DNA of 64,000 nt from Geobacter sp. (GTDB taxonomy: Bacteria > Desulfobacterota > Desulfuromonadia > Geobacterales > Geobacteraceae). Shown here in pieces: positions 2,969-52,000 of the stretch. The position numbers and the translations under genes are program-made. Below the pieces are notes generated by a model. It did no database searches, had not been told where the DNA came from, and was given only the letters and a program-made list of their open reading frames with translations. Location: positions 248,001 to 312,000 of the forward strand of contig PJFC01000001.1 of assembly GCA_003574885.1 (NCBI GenBank), in the 5' to 3' direction. Each line of letters starts with the position of its first letter. The stretch's first letter is position 1.

Positions 2969-5836
2969 TCAGAGTAGTTTGCGCAGGAACTGCCCCGTGT
3001 AGGAGCGGGTGACCCGGGCCACCTCTTCCGGCGTCCCCGTGGCAATCACCTCGCCACCCCGGTCCCCACCCTCCGGCCCCAGGTCGATGAGGTAGTCGGC
3101 GGTCTTGATGACGTCCAGGTTGTGCTCGATGATGACAATGGTGTTCCCCCCCTCCACCAGACGCTGCAGGACATCCAGGAGCTTCTGGATATCGGCGAAG
3201 TGGAGGCCGGTGGTCGGCTCATCCAGGATATAGATGGTCCGGCCGGTTGCCCGTTTGGCCAGCTCCTTGGCAAGCTTCACCCGCTGGGCCTCGCCGCCGG
3301 AAAGGGTGGTGGCAGATTGCCCCAGCTTGATGTAGCCGAGCCCCACCTCTTCCAGGGTCTTCAGCTTGGTCCTGATACGGGGGATGTGTTCCATGAACTG
3401 CACCGCCTGGGAGACGGTCATGTCCAGCACCTCGGCGATGGATTTCCCCTTGTAGCGCACCTCCAGGGTTTCCCGATTATAGCGGGCACCCTTGCAGACC
3501 TCACACTGGACGTAGACGTCGGGAAGGAAGTGCATCTCGATCTTGATGATCCCGTCCCCCGAGCACGCCTCGCACCTCCCTCCCTTGACGTTGAAGGAGT
3601 AACGCCCCGGCTTGTAGCCGCGCACCTTGGATTCGGGGAGCTGGGCGAACAGGTCGCGGACGTCGGTGAAGAGCCCGGTGTAGGTTGCGGGGTTGGAACG
3701 GGGTGTGCGTCCGATGGGTGACTGGTCGATATTGATCACCTTGTCCAGCGCCTCCAGCCCTTTGATGTCGCGTACCGCACCCGCTTTCTCCCGGCTCTTG
3801 TAAAGTCTCTGGCCAAGCACCTTGTAGAGGGTGTCGATCACCAGGGTCGATTTCCCCGACCCCGAGACTCCGGTGACACAGGTCATGACACCGAGGGGAA
3901 TCTGCACATCCACTTGCTTCAGGTTGTTTTCCGTGGCACCGACGATCTTCAGGAACGTCCGGGGCGTGCGCCGTTTTTTCGGCACGGCGATGGAAAGCGC
4001 CCCCGACAGGTATTGGCCGGTAAGGGATGCGGGGTTCGCCATGATCTCCGCAGGCGTTCCCTGGGCCACCACTTCACCGCCATGGACCCCCGCCCCCGGC
4101 CCCATGTCGATGACATGGTCCGATTCCATGATTGTTTCCTCGTCGTGCTCCACCACGAGCACCGTATTACCGATATCGCGCAGGTGCTTGAGGGTCTGGA
4201 GGAGCCGGGCGTTGTCCCGCTGGTGGAGGCCGATGGAGGGTTCATCCAGGATGTAAAGGACTCCCACGAGGGAGGAGCCTATCTGGGTTGCAAGGCGGAT
4301 CCGCTGCCCCTCCCCGCCGGAGAGGGTGCCGGATGAGCGGTCCAGTGAGAGGTAGTCGAGCCCCACGTTGACCAGGAAGTGGAGCCGCTCCCGGATTTCC
4401 TTCAGGACCCGGCGGGCGATCTCCGCTTCCTTCTCGGTCAGGGGAAGGTCGGCGAAGAACTCCAGGCACTCCTTGATGGAGAGGGCCGTGACCTCGCAGA
4501 TGTTCCGCTCGTTGATCCTGACGTAGAGCGCCTCTTTCTTCAATCGCGCACCCTGGCAGGTGGGGCACGGCATGACGTTCATGTACTTCTCCAGCTCCTC
4601 CCGCACCTGCTCCGAGTCAGTCTCCCGGAACCGCCGCTCCAGGTTGTTCAGCACCCCCTCGAACTCCTTCTGGTAGGTATGGCGACGGCCACCGTCCTCC
4701 TCCCACCAGAACTCCACCTTCTCCCCTCCCGAGCCGTACAGGATAACCTGCTGGGCCTTTTTCGGGAGCTTGCTGAAGGGGGTGCGGATGTCGAAGTCGT
4801 AGGCCTTGGCCAGCGCCTCCAGGGTCAGGTGGTACCAGCCGGAGAGGCGCTTTTCCCACGGGGCGATGGCGCCGTCCCGGATGGAGAGGTCAGGGTTCGG
4901 GACCACCAACTCGGCGTCGAAGTACATTCGGGTGCCGAGCCCCGTGCAGTCGGGGCAGGCGCCATAGGGGTTGTTGAAGGAGAACATGCGTGGTGTCATT
5001 TCCGGGTAGGATATGCCGCAGTCGATGCAGGCGAGGCTTTCGGAGAAGAGCATGGTGCTTTCCGGCAGGGGACGGGTGCCCCTCCCCTTTTCGGGCGGCA
5101 AATCGCCCCCCTTGGCCTCCACGATGGACACCTTGGCGATCCCCTCCCCATGGTTGAGTGCCACCTCCAGGGAGTCGGCAAGCCGCCGCTCCAGCCCCTC
5201 CTTGACGATGAGCCGGTCCACCACGATGTCGATGTCGTGCTTCTTGTTCTTGTCGAGGGTGATCTCTTCCGTCAGTTCAAAAGGTTTCCCGTCGATAACG
5301 ACCCGGGTGAAGCCGTCTTTCCTCAGCTGCTGAAGCTCCTTCCGGTACTCACCCTTGCGACCGCGCACCATGGGGGAGAGGAGGTTGAGCCTGGTCCCGG
5401 CGGGAAGGGCCATGATCTGGTCCACCATCTGGGATACGGTCTGGGAGGTGATCTCCTTGCCGCAATTGTAGCAATGGGGGCGGCCGACCCGGGCAAAGAG
5501 GAGCCGGAGGTAGTCGTAAATTTCGGTGACCGTGCCGACGGTAGAGCGGGGATTCTTGCTGGTCGTTTTCTGTTCGATGGAAATGGCGGGAGAAAGCCCC
5601 TCGATGGACTCCACATCGGGTTTCTCCATCTGCTCCAGGAACTGTCGGGCATAGGCGGAGAGGGACTCCACGTATCGCCGCTGCCCCTCGGCATAGATGG
5701 TATCGAAGGCAAGGGTAGACTTCCCCGACCCGGAGATGCCGGTGATGACTACCAGTTCGTCCCGGGGAATTTCCACGTCGATGCATTTCAGGTTGTGCTC
5801 GCAGGCCCCTTTGATGATGATCTTGTTGCTTGCCAT
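2969..5836 (-). CDS. uvrA: UvrABC excinuclease subunit A
   Basis: DNA damage sensor of nucleotide excision repair. It is an ATPase dimer that loads UvrB at lesions. The 955 residues match the usual length. Two ABC modules are visible. The first has Walker [10 protein letters not shown] near residue 33 and signature [12 protein letters not shown]. The second has Walker [10 protein letters not shown] and signature [12 protein letters not shown]. Zinc-binding CxxC pairs occur as CIDC/CPDC and CEAC/CEVC. The start MASNKIII is preceded by GGAG with 4 nt spacing. No convincing LexA-type palindrome was seen upstream. The first gene of a probable two-gene operon with the DMT transporter. Confidence 0.98.
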
Positions 5837-6398: not shown

Positions 6399-7808
6399 TC
6401 AGATACCAGCGATCTCCCGCCCGGCCTGGAGCAATTCATCTACCAGGCTGGGCTCCCCCGCTTCGCTGTAAAGACGGAGCACCGGCTCGGTGCCGGAGGG
6501 ACGGATCAGGAGCCAGGAGCCGTCGTCAAAGGTGAACTTGAAACCGTCTTTGAAATTCTCCTCCGCCACCGGCCGTCCGGCGATGGTCGCCAGACCTCCC
6601 GCCTGGAGCCGGGAGATGAGCGCTTCCTTGGCACTGTTGTCGATGGGGAGATCGAGGCGGCGGTAGTAAAAATGGCCGATTTCATCCATGGTCTCCATGA
6701 GAAGCTGGCGGAGCCCCTTGCCGGTCATGGCCATCGCTTCAAGGAGGAGGAGCCCCATGAGAATGCCGTCCCGCTCCGGGATGTGACCCTTGACACCGAG
6801 TCCTCCCGATTCTTCCCCCCCCATGAGGATGTCATGGTCGAGCATCAGTTCGCAGATATGCTTGAAGCCGATGGGGGTCTCGTAAAGGGGGAGGCCGAAC
6901 TTGGCACACAGGAGGTCGATCATTCGGGTAGTGGAGACGGTCTTCACTACCCCCCCCGTGAGCCCCTTCCGTTCGTAGAGGTGGCGCAACAGCACGGTAA
7001 AGATGCGATGGGATGAAAAAAACTCTCCCGTTTCATCCACCGCACCGATCCGGTCCGCATCCCCGTCCAACGCAAGGCCGACCCGGTACTGGCCGCTCTT
7101 CACCAGAAGCGCTAGATCCGCCAGATGCTCTTCCGTCGGCTCGGGAGGCTGACCGCCAAAGCCGGGGTTTTCCAGGGCGTGGATTTCCGCCGTGCCGGGA
7201 AGAAGCTCGGGAATGAAGCCGGTTCCGGCACCGTACATTGGGTCCACCACCACCGGGATACTGGCACGACGGATCAGGTCAAGATCAACGTAGCGGGTCA
7301 GTTGCCCGAAATAGGCGGTTTTCGCGTCATAGACTTTCACCAGTCCCTTTGCCCGAGCCTCGGCAAGGGGAATGGACAGCACTTCCCGGCCACTCGCCTG
7401 AATGGCCGCAACCATCTCTTCCAGCTCTTTCGTCGTGGAGGGGCGGGCCGATCCGCCGTACTGTTCCTTGATTTTGAAGCCATTGTAAATGGGCGGGTTG
7501 TGGCTGGCGGTAATCATCACTCCGCCCCCCGCCTTCAGTTCGTGCACCCCCCAGGAGACCGCCGGGGTCGGTGCATAGCCGTCGGTAAGCCAGCACGCGA
7601 TACCGTTGCCGGCAGCAACCTCCACCACCCGCTCGGCGAACTCCCGGGAAAGGAAGCGCCGGTCATAGCCGACCACCAGACCACGGGATGCGAGCCCTTC
7701 CCGCTGGAGATAATCCATGGTGGCCTGGGCCACGAGGGAAACATTGTCAAAGGTAAAATCGCGGGCAATCACTCCCCGCCAGCCATCGGTACCAAACTTG
7801 ATCTGCAA
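6399..7808 (-). CDS. Phosphomannomutase/phosphoglucomutase (alpha-D-phosphohexomutase)
   Basis: Cytosolic enzyme interconverting hexose 1- and 6-phosphates for nucleotide-sugar and polysaccharide synthesis. All family motifs are present: active-site serine loop TASHNP, metal loop DGDADR, sugar-binding EESGG, and phosphate-binding RPSGTEPVLRLY. I choose the TTG at 7808 as start because GGAGG lies 8-9 nt upstream and the protein then begins LQIKFGTDGWRG, the normal N-terminus (469 residues). The in-frame ATG at 7883 would add an unrelated 25-residue tail. Preference for glucose or mannose cannot be read from the motifs seen. Confidence 0.9.
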   Translation of the reverse strand: MQIKFGTDGWRGVIARDFTFDNVSLVAQATMDYLQREGLASRGLVVGYDRRFLSREFAERVVEVAAGNGIACWLTDGYAPTPAVSWGVHELKAGGGVMITASHNPPIYNGFKIKEQYGGSARPSTTKELEEMVAAIQASGREVLSIPLAEARAKGLVKVYDAKTAYFGQLTRYVDLDLIRRASIPVVVDPMYGAGTGFIPELLPGTAEIHALENPGFGGQPPEPTEEHLADLALLVKSGQYRVGLALDGDADRIGAVDETGEFFSSHRIFTVLLRHLYERKGLTGGVVKTVSTTRMIDLLCAKFGLPLYETPIGFKHICELMLDHDILMGGEESGGLGVKGHIPERDGILMGLLLLEAMAMTGKGLRQLLMETMDEIGHFYYRRLDLPIDNSAKEALISRLQAGGLATIAGRPVAEENFKDGFKFTFDDGSWLLIRPSGTEPVLRLYSEAGEPSLVDELLQAGREIAGI

Positions 7809-45934: not shown

Positions 45935-47173
45935 CTACTGAGCCAGTTCCACCCGGTTCTTCCCGCCGTTCTTTGCGCGATAGAGGGCATCGTCCGCAGC
46001 CTTCACCAACGCGTCCGGAGTGGTCCCGTGCTGGGGGAAGGTCGCCACGCCGATACTGACTGTGGCCTTGCGGCCGTCGATGTCCAACAGCTCCACGTCC
46101 TTCCTGATCCGTTCCGCAAAACCGAGGGCATCGATGCTTAAGGAGCTATCACCGTCCAATCCCGACTCAAGCGGTGTCTCCGGCAGAATGATGGCAAACT
46201 CCTCGCCGCCGTACCGGCAAGGTACATCCACATCGTAGGGTGGTTCGGTCTCGCTCCGTCGAATGTTGTCCCGGAACACCTGCGCCACCCCTTTCAGGAG
46301 CCGGTCTCCTTCCAGGTGTCCGTAGGTGTCGTTGAACTTCTTGAAATTGTCCAGGTCGAGGAAGATGACGGAAAATACGTGGTTGTAGCGGAGCGAACGC
46401 TGGATCTCGCTGTTAAGAGTTTTGAAGAAATATCCCCGGTTGTAGAGCTTGGTCATCTGGTCCTTTATCACCATCAGCTTCAGGTCATTCTCACGTTTCC
46501 GGATGATCGCCATGAGATAGGCCGAGATGATCGCCATGGTTCCGTTCATAAGGGATACCCAGAACCAGCGGAGCATCACGTAGACAAAATTGTGCTGGAG
46601 TGATGGATCGATGAGCGGCATGCAGATCGGAGGGATGATGCTGTAGAACTCCGCCGTCAGCACTGCACCGTAGATAAGTCCGCCCACGGCGCCGATAAAC
46701 CAGACATCGCCACGCCGCTCCAGGAGAAACGACGCCTCCAGGGTAATGACTAGGTAGACAGCCCAGAACCAGCTGAGCGCACCGCCGCTGTAGTGGATCA
46801 GAATGGTGACGAACAGGATGTCCAGGAGTATCTGGAGGTGGTTAATAAGGACGAAATGGCTCAACTCCTGGACATAGCGGTGATAGAAGAGATTGTACGC
46901 CACAACCGCCACCATGGCCCCCCCCAGCGCCAGCATCTGGGAAAGTTGCAGGTCGGCGGCATTGCCGCTGAAATACATGAACCCGCCGGCGTACATGCCA
47001 TACAATGTCAGCAAGGTGAGAAGCATCCACCGCGTTTTCACCACCAGCTGCATTCGTATCTGGCTCTCCCCCAGCATCTCCAGTTCGTGACTGGTCGGAT
47101 CTCCCCGGTAGACGCCAAAGCGCTTGATCAGGGACTTGAACCATACCATCATTTCGATTCGTTCTGCTGGCAT
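45935..47173 (-). CDS. Membrane-bound diguanylate cyclase
   Basis: Makes cyclic di-GMP from two GTP. 412 residues from ATG 47173 (GGAG 6 nt upstream). About six membrane helices (residues 45-230) form an input domain of unknown ligand. A GGDEF domain follows with metal site FLDLDNFKKFNDTYGH and active loop CRYGGEEFAIIL (GGEEF variant, active in many enzymes). No RxxD inhibitory site is present five residues before the loop, so product feedback may be absent. It is monocistronic. Confidence 0.9.
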   Translation of the reverse strand: MPAERIEMMVWFKSLIKRFGVYRGDPTSHELEMLGESQIRMQLVVKTRWMLLTLLTLYGMYAGGFMYFSGNAADLQLSQMLALGGAMVAVVAYNLFYHRYVQELSHFVLINHLQILLDILFVTILIHYSGGALSWFWAVYLVITLEASFLLERRGDVWFIGAVGGLIYGAVLTAEFYSIIPPICMPLIDPSLQHNFVYVMLRWFWVSLMNGTMAIISAYLMAIIRKRENDLKLMVIKDQMTKLYNRGYFFKTLNSEIQRSLRYNHVFSVIFLDLDNFKKFNDTYGHLEGDRLLKGVAQVFRDNIRRSETEPPYDVDVPCRYGGEEFAIILPETPLESGLDGDSSLSIDALGFAERIRKDVELLDIDGRKATVSIGVATFPQHGTTPDALVKAADDALYRAKNGGKNRVELAQ

Positions 47174-47327
47174 GACGCTCTCCACGTTGCGATACTGATA
47201 CCATAATGTACATTAAATTTATTAATTATGCAATAAATATGCTAGGTTAGGTAACTCTGTGAAATATCCGCCAGGCCTGTCCCCTTTACCGACCGGCCCG
47301 CCGCATCTCCACCCGTTCACACAGGGG

Positions 47328-49174: not shown

Positions 49175-50245
49175 CTACTGCGGCGGCCGGTTGGGCAGAT
49201 ACTGCTCGAACTGCTTCTTGTCCGACGCGCAGCGGTAGGCCTCTTCCGCCCCGATCTTCCGCATTTTGAGGAGGTCAAGGAGATGCTGGTCCATGAGCTG
49301 CATCCCCTCCTTCTTGGCCGTCTGGATGATGGACGGGATCTGGAAGGTCTTTCCTTCCCGGATAAGGTTGCCGATGGCCGGCGTTCCGACCATGATCTCC
49401 AGCGCCGGCACCCGCCCCTTGCCGTCGGCGGTGCGGAGCAGCTGCTGGCAGATCACCCCCCTGAGCGATTCGGACAGCATGGTACGGACCTGCTCCTGGG
49501 CATCCCGCGGGAAAGCGTCGATGATCCGGTCGATAGTCTTGGCGGCCGAGTTGGTGTGAAGGGTGCCGAACACCAGGTGGCCGGTTTCGGCGGCCGTCAT
49601 GGCAAGGCTGATTGTTTCCAGGTCGCGCATCTCCCCGACCAGGATGACGTCCGGGTCCTCTCGGAGAGCTGCGCGCAGGGCCGCGGTAAAGCTGTCCGAA
49701 TGTTCGCCGATCTGGCGCTGGTTCAGGAGCGACAGTTTATTGCTATGAATGAACTCAAGCGGGTCCTCAAGGGTCAGGATATGCTCCCGCCGCGTGCTGT
49801 TGATGAGATCGATCATCGCGGCAAGTGTCGTGGACTTGCCGGAGCCGGTCGGTCCGGTGACCAGGACCATCCCCTTCTTAAGGTTGGTCATTTTCCGGAC
49901 CCCTTCGGGGAGCCCAAGGTCGTCAGCAGAGAGGATCTTGCTCGGAATTATCCGGAAGACTGCCGCGATTCCCTTGTGCTGCATGAACATATTGCCGCGG
50001 AACCTGGCCAGGCCGGGTATCTCGTAGGCAAAATCCAGGTCGTGCTTCTCCTCGAAATCCCGCTTCTGCCTCTCAGTCAGGATCTCGTACAGGATCGACT
50101 TGGCCTCTTCATGTGAGATGGATTTGAAGTTCGACTTCTCCATCTCCCCGTGGAGACGGAAGATGGGGGGCGACCCCGTTGACAGGTGGAGGTCCGACGC
50201 CCCCTGATCCTTGAGCATTTTGAACAATCCATCGATTCTTGCCAT
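49175..50245 (-). CDS. PilT-family type IV pilus retraction ATPase paralogue
   Basis: Cytoplasmic hexameric ATPase. 356 residues. Walker A GPTGSGKSTT near residue 130, Walker B DPDVILVGEMRD, His box GHLVFGTLHTNSA. The PilT-specific motif AIRNLIRE appears as AIGNLIREGK near residue 288, with Gly for Arg, so it may be one of the secondary PilT copies rather than the main retraction motor. It lies 96 bases behind a PilB/GspE-like gene that has lost its P-loop. Confidence 0.9.
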   Translation of the reverse strand: MARIDGLFKMLKDQGASDLHLSTGSPPIFRLHGEMEKSNFKSISHEEAKSILYEILTERQKRDFEEKHDLDFAYEIPGLARFRGNMFMQHKGIAAVFRIIPSKILSADDLGLPEGVRKMTNLKKGMVLVTGPTGSGKSTTLAAMIDLINSTRREHILTLEDPLEFIHSNKLSLLNQRQIGEHSDSFTAALRAALREDPDVILVGEMRDLETISLAMTAAETGHLVFGTLHTNSAAKTIDRIIDAFPRDAQEQVRTMLSESLRGVICQQLLRTADGKGRVPALEIMVGTPAIGNLIREGKTFQIPSIIQTAKKEGMQLMDQHLLDLLKMRKIGAEEAYRCASDKKQFEQYLPNRPPQ

Positions 50246-50341
50246 TTTCTGTACTCTCCGTAAAACGTTTATACAGCAGAGCCCTTAGACTCCGCAGATA
50301 CTTAAGGGTGGCCGTTCGAAGATGCCACCTGCTCTCTTTCT

Positions 50342-52000
50342 TTAGAGAAGGAGCGAGGCAACATACTCCACCGGGGATATCTCGCCGGCCCTAAGCAGCC
50401 CCTCCCCCTCCGCCCTGATGCCGCGATACCCCGCACCGTGCAGGTACCGCTCAATATCCTTGCTGTCGCCGGCCGACTCGAAGGCAGCCAGAAGTTCTCC
50501 GTCGAAAGCGATCAGGTCGAGCAGATAGCGCCGTCCCTTCACTCCGGTCTCGTCGCAGTCAGGGCATCCGGTAGCCCGGAAATAGCTCCCGGCCGGCGTC
50601 GCCAGACGCAGGGCGGCAATCTCCTCCCTGCCCGGCTTGTATTCCCCGCGACAGCGGGGGCACAGGGTCGCCACCCCCTTGCAGGAGATGATCCCCTTGA
50701 GACACGTGGGGACAAAGTAATGCCGGTGCCAGAGATGGAGGAGATGCCTGAACGCCGCATCCACATCGGGTAAAGCAATGCCCGCAACCACCAGCTTCCC
50801 CCGCATGGCGGCCTTGGTTGCCGCACTGAAGGAGAGGGAGTCGGTGACGTCCTCAACGACGATGATGTCCGGATCATGGTCGAGAGCGGCGAGGAGCAGG
50901 TCGTGGCTCTCACCCCCCACCCCGTTCGGCAGGGGAATCCGCGGGAAGTGCTTGCTCCCCTTCCCAAGGCCGTTGCCGAGGAGAAGGACGCTTTTGCCTG
51001 CCGTGGAGCACTGTTCCAGAAAGAGGTCCATGAGACTGCAGCGGTCTTCGTTGTCCCGGTGAACGACAAGTACCAGCCCCGACGTCGAGGCCGACAGGTC
51101 GCGGAACCGGGCGAGCTGCTCGACCGATCCCCCGAGATCCTCAAGCCGGGAGGGGAACGGTGCGGCCGCCTGTGGTTTCAGCGTCACGCAATCACCGGCG
51201 GCTCCCCGCAACAACAGGACCTGAAAGGAGAGCTGAGCTCCCTTGTAGCGAAACCCCAGCGTTCCGCCCGCCATGCTTTCTGCGGAACCGTCGATCGAGG
51301 CAAGCTTCCGTATCCGCAGCACCAGATCGGGATAGTAGGTGCCGCAAAGGGTCCCTACCGGCCGGGTTTTACCGGCCCTTTTCGCGACAATGCCGACACT
51401 GTCACCCACTGGTTGCAGGGAGAGCCCCGTCGCCCTGTTCTGGATGATGAAGACGAGAAGGTAATCGAGGAGCCGCGCCCCGGTAAGATCGGCGTTGATT
51501 TCGGCAAGCACACGTTCGGGAAAACAGTCCGTCTCGAGTCCGAGGGATGTGGCGCTCTCCGCCGGGCCATAGAAGATATCCTGCATCTCCCGTATTTCCC
51601 GGATGAGGGCGACGGAGACCGTGACCTGACAGCCGGTCAGTTCCTCTACGGCCCCTATGGCCTCCTTGTTGAGGGGATCGGCCAGGGCAAGGGAAAGGTC
51701 GTCCCCCATCCGGAGCAGGGGGATCAGGTTGTACTTGCGTGCCGTCGTGGCCGGGATGAGGTCGGCTGCCTCCTTGTCGATCATTTCCCGCTTAAGCCGC
51801 ACGTAGGGAATGTTCAGCTGGTTGGAGAGTGCCCAGTCGATATCCTCCTGGGTGACGATCCCCAGCTTGACCAGCGCCTCCCCGAAACGGCAGCCGGAAG
51901 CCTGCTGCTCGTCCAGCGCCGCCTTGATGTCATGTTCCATTATAATCTGTGAATTGAAGAGGATCGCACCCAGCGAACCTTCCTTGACGAGCTCGTTCAT
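50342..52000 (-). CDS. PilB/GspE-like protein with degenerate ATPase site
   Basis: 552 residues from ATG 52000 (GGAGG just upstream). The N-terminus is an intact MshEN domain (GAILFNSQIIMEHDIKAALDEQ, FGEALVKLGIVTQEDI), which in relatives binds c-di-GMP. The C-terminal half has the GspE/PilB layout, but the Walker A position (about residue 313) reads LVVHRDNEDRCS, without GxxGxGKT. The Walker B region HDPDIIVVEDV keeps only part of the consensus. The zinc CxxC pairs are kept (CPRC near 448, CPDC near 479). Probably a regulatory pseudo-ATPase. It is coupled by position to the PilT paralogue. Confidence 0.8.
   Translation of the reverse strand: MNELVKEGSLGAILFNSQIIMEHDIKAALDEQQASGCRFGEALVKLGIVTQEDIDWALSNQLNIPYVRLKREMIDKEAADLIPATTARKYNLIPLLRMGDDLSLALADPLNKEAIGAVEELTGCQVTVSVALIREIREMQDIFYGPAESATSLGLETDCFPERVLAEINADLTGARLLDYLLVFIIQNRATGLSLQPVGDSVGIVAKRAGKTRPVGTLCGTYYPDLVLRIRKLASIDGSAESMAGGTLGFRYKGAQLSFQVLLLRGAAGDCVTLKPQAAAPFPSRLEDLGGSVEQLARFRDLSASTSGLVLVVHRDNEDRCSLMDLFLEQCSTAGKSVLLLGNGLGKGSKHFPRIPLPNGVGGESHDLLLAALDHDPDIIVVEDVTDSLSFSAATKAAMRGKLVVAGIALPDVDAAFRHLLHLWHRHYFVPTCLKGIISCKGVATLCPRCRGEYKPGREEIAALRLATPAGSYFRATGCPDCDETGVKGRRYLLDLIAFDGELLAAFESAGDSKDIERYLHGAGYRGIRAEGEGLLRAGEISPVEYVASLLL

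Follow-up and report, generated by a model that had tools for sequence, protein, structure and literature searches.

In Vibrio cholerae, MshE is the extension ATPase of the MSHA pilus and a c-di-GMP receptor (structure 5htl); c-di-GMP on MshE leads to extension, and low c-di-GMP goes together with retraction (PMC7096442). Thermus thermophilus PilF, which also has MshEN-type domains, carries three N-terminal GSPII domains together with an active ATPase (PMC11731258). Geobacter has PilB (GSU1491; structures 5zfr and 5tsh), and in G. sulfurreducens a further gene, GSU0435, is located upstream of pilT3 (GSU0436). The gene upstream of pilT3 was termed mshE and described as homologous to a polymerisation ATPase, and co-transcription of mshE and pilT3 was judged unlikely (PMC5065972). 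The G. sulfurreducens homologues of PilB, GSU0435 among them, were considered possible stand-ins for PilB, or compensators, when pilB is deleted (PMC8557921). The candidacy of GSU0435 matters for the question of whether conductive pili can still form in the absence of pilB. Among the passages found by searching the open-licence literature of PubMed Central, supplements aside, none described a PilB/GspE-type protein without a P-loop and none questioned the annotation of GSU0435.

PilT3 powers retraction in P. aeruginosa. The pilT3 mutant of G. sulfurreducens showed an anode lag of 33 +/- 3 h versus 24 +/- 11 h in the WT strain, with overlapping spreads, and, on Fe(III) oxides, a plateau lasting about 4 days, whereas denser biofilms and a lasting Fe(III)-oxide defect resulted from the loss of PilT4, not of PilT3 (all from PMC5065972).

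The gene pair and the loss of the ATPase site

The window (the whole stretch of DNA that was analysed, 64,000 nucleotides) contained a gene for a 552-aa protein of the PilB/GspE/MshE type at 50342..52000 (minus strand, as are all features of the window given below), which was recognised from its ORF, Pfam and NCBIfam matches, paralogue alignment and relatives and is termed the pseudo-ATPase hereafter. The ORF was intact, with an ATG at 52000 and GGAGGGG immediately 5' of it. MshEN_N, with two 24-residue motifs of the c-di-GMP type, occupied residues 9-61 (51818..51976) on the evidence of conservation and of the NCBIfam model for the MshE-related c-di-GMP motif (NF053729; residues 10-61, 46.4 bits, cut-off 38). 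It was followed by MshEN_C at residues 62-149 (51554..51817), which was delimited by Pfam MshEN (PF05157; 56.1 bits, cut-off 23.1) and by superposition of the model on 5htl_A. Residues 171-552 (50345..51490) formed a degenerate T2SSE half, composed of N2D and the C-terminal ATPase fold, according to the model and to Pfam T2SSE (residues 184-542; 68.4 bits, cut-off 24.9). A chance ORF was ruled out by these family matches. The protein stayed under the NCBIfam equivalog cut-offs for PilB (116.2 versus 675.65 bits) and GspE (104.1 versus 630.25 bits). Its own genome had ten T2SSE matches, nine of them above the cut-off, and three were long proteins with an intact P-loop.

Downstream of the pseudo-ATPase gene, an intergenic stretch of 96 nt (50246..50341, from the ORF coordinates) was followed by a pilT3-type PilT gene for 356 aa (49175..50245), identified by TIGR01420 (482.3 bits, cut-off 319.1) and by its motifs; GPTGSGKS, GEMRD and HTN were intact, as read in the window gene alone. 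At the other loci of the family, the corresponding gap ranged from 12 to 146 nt, with the exception of one frame-broken locus.

The window protein was aligned with three intact paralogues from the same genome. At residues 314-321 (51038..51061), the former Walker A site, which was also placed by alignment with the family, HRDNEDRC stood in place of GPTGSGK[TS]. The His box (residues 407-412, 50765..50782) was gone, its His being replaced by A409, and the first acid of the Asp box (residues 339-347, 50960..50986) had become G342. In Walker B (residues 376-387, DPDIIVVEDVTD, 50840..50875), the Gly-Glu pair was replaced by Glu-Asp (E383-D384). The zinc tetracysteine, C447/C450 and C479/C482 (50555..50662), was complete.

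The same positions were counted in 92 distinct full-length members of the family, window included; 126 full-length rows had been available before removal of identical ones, and rows shorter than 500 aa and the outlier L208 were left out as well. The Walker A Lys was kept in 0 of the 92, and Arg was found instead in 89. The His-box His was missing and the first Asp-box column (PilB E354) was Gly in all 92, whereas all four zinc cysteines were present in 92/92. The Walker B Glu was represented by Asp in 82 members and by Asn in 6 and was kept in 1; the second Asp-box column (PilB D355) was still E or D in 72/92. In the two PilB stretches holding R213/R215/R217 and R258, which we take to be arginine-finger regions, the R217 column was Arg or Lys in 90/92. 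The strict Walker A pattern G....GK[ST] was absent from all 92 members and, at the 90 loci L090-L179, from every pseudo-ATPase ORF, and the loose pattern [AG]....GK[ST] occurred twice among the 92, both times distant from the Walker A site. Judging from these residues, ATP binding and hydrolysis by the pseudo-ATPase have very probably been lost. Some features of a motor partly remain, namely the Walker B acid in most members, the second Asp-box acid and the R217 column.

The preliminary description of this DNA had claimed an intact gene that keeps the MshEN domain and both zinc CxxC pairs and has a replaced Walker A loop, and all of this was borne out, with the catalytic losses recurring across the 92 members. 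Its statement that Walker B is degraded was correct for the Gly-Glu pair, but the hydrophobic strand and one acidic residue persist. It had also proposed that orthologues with an intact P-loop would point to recent decay in this strain; none was found in the family. Recent decay in one strain was excluded by the same losses in 92 members and by the dN/dS values given below.

Despite the motif loss, the N2D and C-terminal ATPase fold is predicted to be still PilB-like. The AlphaFold2 model (pLDDT 85.7, pTM 0.56) was superposed on PilF 5oiu_C with Z 31.4 (rmsd 5.9 over 382 residues) and on G. metallireducens PilB 5tsh_D with Z 28.9 (rmsd 6.7, 371 aligned), and the superposition of model residues 7-144 on MshE 5htl_A, covering 138 residues, gave Z 18.1 and an rmsd of 2.8. 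With V. cholerae MshE, the protein shared the T2SSE fold, the MshEN numbering over 10-118 and 28% identity over 138 residues of the structural alignment; however, MshE is an active ATPase, whereas the pseudo-ATPase has neither Walker A nor the His box, and its Asp box and Walker B are altered. Of what characterises an MSHA extension ATPase, the ATPase motifs were absent or altered. Thermus PilF gave the top structure-profile match (6f8l, 2.1e-80) and has similar N-terminal domains, but it differs in their number and in its active ATPase. Geobacter PilB, which occurred in canonical form in the same genomes, agreed with the pseudo-ATPase in the order of its domains, in the zinc tetracysteine and in the fold, but the identity between them was 19-24%, and the pseudo-ATPase had lost or altered motifs and a reversed distribution of constraint.

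Distribution and pairing with PilT3

The 141 genomes of the order were searched with thresholds of E <= 1e-70 for the family and E <= 1e-165 for PilT3. The pseudo-ATPase family was found in 111 genomes and PilT3 in 118. A single open frame extended over at least 545 of the 552 model positions in 105 of the 111 matching genomes; in the other six (G001, G032, G043, G045, G059 and G116), the gene was cut by a contig end, split or interrupted. Both genes were present in 106 genomes, PilT3 only in 12, the pseudo-ATPase only in 5 and neither in 18 (n = 141), with a Fisher p of 7e-11 for co-occurrence that is uncorrected for relatedness; all of these genome counts ignore relatedness, and drafts can hide genes. 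In the five genomes with the pseudo-ATPase only (G032, G045, G100, G130 and G137), PilT3 was cut or broken, or the contig ended. Nine of the 12 PilT3-only genomes had no pseudo-ATPase at the locus, G049 had a stand-alone MshEN, and in G073 and G131 the contig ended just upstream of PilT3, which makes the presence of the pseudo-ATPase not judgeable there.

A PilT gene was found on the same strand downstream of the pseudo-ATPase in 43 of 44 family loci (at L053, the PilT was in pieces) and in 77 of 80 named loci, the genomes of which partly overlap with those of the 44. The four loci without a downstream PilT (L051, L160, L170 and L176) all ran up to or near a contig end. The pair occurred in two unrelated settings, either after a ThiI-like/mtgA locus, as in many genomes, or after dnaB; the exact order dnaB, pseudo-ATPase, pilT3 was seen at 39 loci, some of them from one genome. 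Six loci had dnaB followed by pilT3 without the pseudo-ATPase, and a seventh had dnaB with two PilT3-type matches. The occurrence of the same pair in two settings indicates that the genes were kept together, which bears out the pairing with a PilT paralogue noted in the preliminary description, and the dnaB-pilT3 loci indicate that the pseudo-ATPase was apparently lost in place several times. Since PilT3 stood without its partner in 9 assessable genomes, the partner is dispensable. These unpaired PilT3 proteins were scattered over the PilT3 tree. Because the sole outside row of this tree (L008, from the window's own genome) had an implausible branch of 9.6, the tree served solely to show how paired and unpaired PilT3 genes are distributed on it and not for a clade claim.

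Several single loci are worth recording. At L190 (G072), two PilT3-type matches (80% and 84%) lay by dnaB, possibly from a duplication of pilT3. In the one-contig genome G003 (L080), the ThiI-like gene and pilT3 (PilT3 at 6593) were in place, the pseudo-ATPase was absent, and an HD-GYP response regulator was located at locus positions 4298-5389. In another one-contig genome, G116 (L098), the pseudo-ATPase was split into two frames and followed by a pilT3-type gene, an apparent recent loss; similar splits were seen in the drafts G059 (L187) and G032 (L053).

In G049, a 166-aa gene encoded the MshEN domain alone. It ended 38 nt before pilT3, had its own ribosome-binding-like stretch and left no space for an ATPase half. 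This stand-alone MshEN directly before pilT3 (L188, 5160-6751, minus strand) may be a minimal form of the system. Because G049 is one draft genome of 570 contigs, it is taken as a lead and not as a rule.

Class-wide, 114 of 277 genomes matched at 1e-60, three of them outside the order (G208, G218 and G221). These three were considered as orthologues with an intact P-loop and rejected; they were intact MshE-like proteins scoring 220-227 bits, with no pilT3-type gene within 7-14 kb. In the phylum group to which L178 belongs, 10 of 295 genomes matched at 1e-65. Two were pseudo-ATPases followed by a PilT (G277 and G284), and eight were intact proteins with no separate PilT match at the locus. The PilT proteins of G277 and G284 were 77% and 68% identical to PilT3, and the L208 PilT was nearer to PilT3 (68%) than three other PilT-type loci of its own genome (39-50%). 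L178 comes from a 'Nitrospirae' MAG record, for which a binning error or transfer is possible. For L178 and L208 together, as pseudo-ATPase/PilT pairs in another phylum group, transfer, binning error and an older origin are all possible.

A quick tree of 38 proteins, with the catalytic columns included, separated all 24 pseudo-ATPases from the other proteins by a branch with support 100, which is consistent with a single loss of the P-loop.

Constraint on the protein and the MshEN pocket

Selection was estimated by the Nei-Gojobori method from the window gene and three orthologues and from one pair among those orthologues. The dN/dS values were 0.16-0.21 for the window gene against the three orthologues and 0.14 for the orthologue pair. 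The earlier suggestion that selection maintains a role other than that of an ATPase is thus supported by all three comparisons of the window gene. By region, the window gene gave 0.10-0.15 for residues 1-150 and 0.19-0.24 for the remainder; the adjoining PilT gene gave 0.016-0.039.

The pseudo-ATPase was also compared with canonical PilB in 19 genomes having both; two of 21 PilB proteins were dropped, L229 from a genome without the pseudo-ATPase and L234 from one with a broken copy of it. Invariant columns made up 42% of MshEN_N, 30% of MshEN_C and 5% of the ATPase core in the pseudo-ATPase, versus 42%, 53% and 85%, respectively, in canonical PilB. Considering these shares, it may be concluded that the constraint on MshEN_N, the most conserved portion of the pseudo-ATPase, is that of a working PilB, that the constraint on MshEN_C is lower and that the constraint on the motor has collapsed. 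Eight family-specific residues, E41, E52, D53, W56, A57, H375, G407 and G436, were invariant in 92/92. The presence of such positions indicates that the pseudo-ATPase was re-shaped and not just abandoned.

The residues of V. cholerae MshE that contact c-di-GMP were taken from PMC5013675 and PMC11731258 and counted in the 92 distinct N-terminal stretches, profile positions 10-118 having the same numbering as residues 10-118 of 5htl. Most contacts were kept: Q32, R38, G40, L58 and D108 in all 92 members, G11 in 91, L29 in 90 and Q61 in 89. Position 10 was L, I or M and position 25 was I, L or V in 92/92, and position 47 was Gly and position 54 Ile in 91/92. Position 39 was Phe in 58 members and V, I, L or M in 34. 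Position 9 was Ser in 73/92 and Arg in 0/92, and Gly at position 18 was present in 5/92, that is, lost in 87. In terms of the motif RLGxx..xxG..xxxxLxxxLxxQ, motif II was therefore near-complete, with Phe or another hydrophobic residue for L39 and Ile for L54, and motif I was without R9 and mostly without G18. The outlier L208 had a pocket near the consensus (KLG and RLG), and L178 had LLG and RFG.

Possible roles of the pseudo-ATPase

The findings to be accounted for are the motif loss, the purifying selection, the constraint on MshEN, the pairing with PilT3 in two settings and the MshEN next to PilT3 in G049. Because the parts that would burn ATP were lost, the sensor end was kept and the gene stays by pilT3, the protein is probably a regulator rather than the annotated engine. 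We give an even chance to its being a conserved pseudo-motor, that is, a non-catalytic and probably c-di-GMP-responsive adaptor of the neighbouring PilT3. The N-terminal MshEN would bind c-di-GMP, or its pocket would receive some other ligand or partner instead, and the dead motor-type body, presumably without ATP, would serve as a scaffold. The protein would then contact and act on the adjoining PilT3, with control presumably running from the pseudo-ATPase to the motor, and would gate the engagement of PilT3 with the pilus base; retraction and early attachment would thereby follow the second messenger. The published work on PilT3 (PMC5065972) fits an adaptor without proving one. The adaptor reading is weakened by the loss of R9 and, in most members, of G18, by Phe at position 39 in 58 members, by the motor features that persist, by the genomes in which PilT3 stands alone, by the unlikely co-transcription in G. 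sulfurreducens, by the overlap of the anode lags and by the unconserved link to the diguanylate cyclase.

The pocket might alternatively have given up c-di-GMP and serve solely as a docking surface for a protein (PilZ, PilM, PilC or PilT3), a tentative proposal that we find somewhat doubtful and that is compatible with an adaptor role. The loss of R9 and, in most members, of G18 speaks for it, as do the invariant or near-invariant E52, D53, D55 and W56 on the motif II helix, which could form a docking face, and the Xanthomonas PilB N-domain solved with PilZ (7lkm). However, G11, Q32, R38, G40, L58, Q61 and D108 each persist in 89-92 of the members, and the non-binder XpsE is without G11, L29, R38, G40, L54, L58 and Q61 (PMC5013675). 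Arg9 was named among the residues important for binding by MshE, but its changes shifted affinity at most fivefold (PMC5013675), and GSPII-B of Thermus PilF binds tightly with K or L in its place (PMC11731258). Intact MshE-like and PilB-like proteins of the present data set also have M, F or K at position 9. Because the contacts are mostly kept while R9 and G18 are lost, and because the literature on Arg9 is divided, binding of c-di-GMP by this MshEN appears plausible from its residues, perhaps with a lower affinity. A role in mixed hexamers with PilB or PilT3, in which the protein would be a structural or force-modulating subunit and ligand binding would be secondary or absent, seems distinctly unlikely. 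It would fit an ATPase half that has kept its fold and its zinc site, the Arg or Lys in the R217 column, which could contribute to a composite active site, and the precedent of PilU, a second, PilT-dependent ATPase (PMC6762196, PMC11656802), but most members have replaced the other PilB arginines (R213 remains in 22, R215 in 2 and R258 in 3 of 92), the constraint lies on MshEN and not on the hexamer-forming half, and G049 is without that half altogether.

The chief rival to the adaptor reading, which we consider unlikely, is a permanently nucleotide-free protein that signals to the production of exopolysaccharide (EPS) or of another surface component and not to the pilus motor. As such it would be, again with low probability, the natural counterpart of the ATPase-deficient PilB mutants of M. 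xanthus that make EPS without pili. A hydrolysis-deficient PilB variant of M. xanthus does support EPS without pili, it has been proposed that signalling comes from the nucleotide-free form (PMC5544727, PMC11656802), and the authors of PMC5065972 considered that pilT3 mutation may act through EPS; nevertheless, such signalling alone leaves the close pairing with pilT3 and the stand-alone MshEN of G049 unexplained. It is very improbable that the protein is an old MshE-type motor in slow decay, retained incidentally upstream of pilT3. The absence of the gene beside pilT3 in 9 assessable genomes, its two-frame split in G116, G059 and G032 and the fast evolution of the portion after residue 149 would agree with decay. 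The selection result (dN/dS 0.14-0.21 in four comparisons) largely refutes this explanation, which is also opposed by the single open frame over nearly the whole model in 105/111 genomes and by the residues E52, D53, W56, A57, H375 and G407, invariant in 92/92.

A more specific form of the adaptor, in which a dead extension-type motor would be a c-di-GMP-gated brake or loader of a dedicated PilT3, would represent a previously unrecognised class among type IV pilus regulators, although we hold this to be possible rather than likely. If it were true, PilT3 would be held in check by its partner, hence the retraction powered by PilT3 in P. aeruginosa as against PilT4 as the motor of Geobacter, and an evolutionary path would lead from a motor (MshE) through a pseudo-motor to a bare receptor (the MshEN of G049). 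A pseudo-ATPase tied to one PilT would offer a testable handle on how c-di-GMP could reach retraction and a natural split of MshEN signalling from the motor.

GSU0435 resembles the present gene in its order relative to pilT3, its annotation class and its low identity (26%) to PilB (PMC5065972, PMC8557921). It is probably an orthologue of the pseudo-ATPase, as judged from gene order and annotation rather than from direct comparison, and presumably has lost its P-loop too. As a probable orthologue, it is unlikely to power pili. If GSU0435 shares the losses of the 92 members, substitution for PilB by ATP hydrolysis is unlikely, and it should be dropped from the list of candidates.

The preliminary description had pointed to a diguanylate cyclase gene 3 kb away in connection with c-di-GMP-dependent control. 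A diguanylate cyclase of membrane type, bearing the motif GGEEF, is indeed encoded in the window (ORF at 45935-47185), but it did not hold up as evidence. Among 103 probed loci with a pseudo-ATPase match, only L100, a 92% identical relative, had both the MATE gene and this GGDEF gene (89%) after PilT3; the genomes of these loci overlap, and most of the loci extend just 4 kb beyond the gene. Neither the MATE gene nor that GGDEF gene was present in a 19-kb stretch (L081) of the same-genus genome G008. The linkage was therefore discarded as unconserved among the probed loci. In some genomes, such as those of Geomonas and Geomesophilobacter, the pair had HD-GYP genes or different GGDEF genes (35-44% identity to that of the window) in its vicinity.
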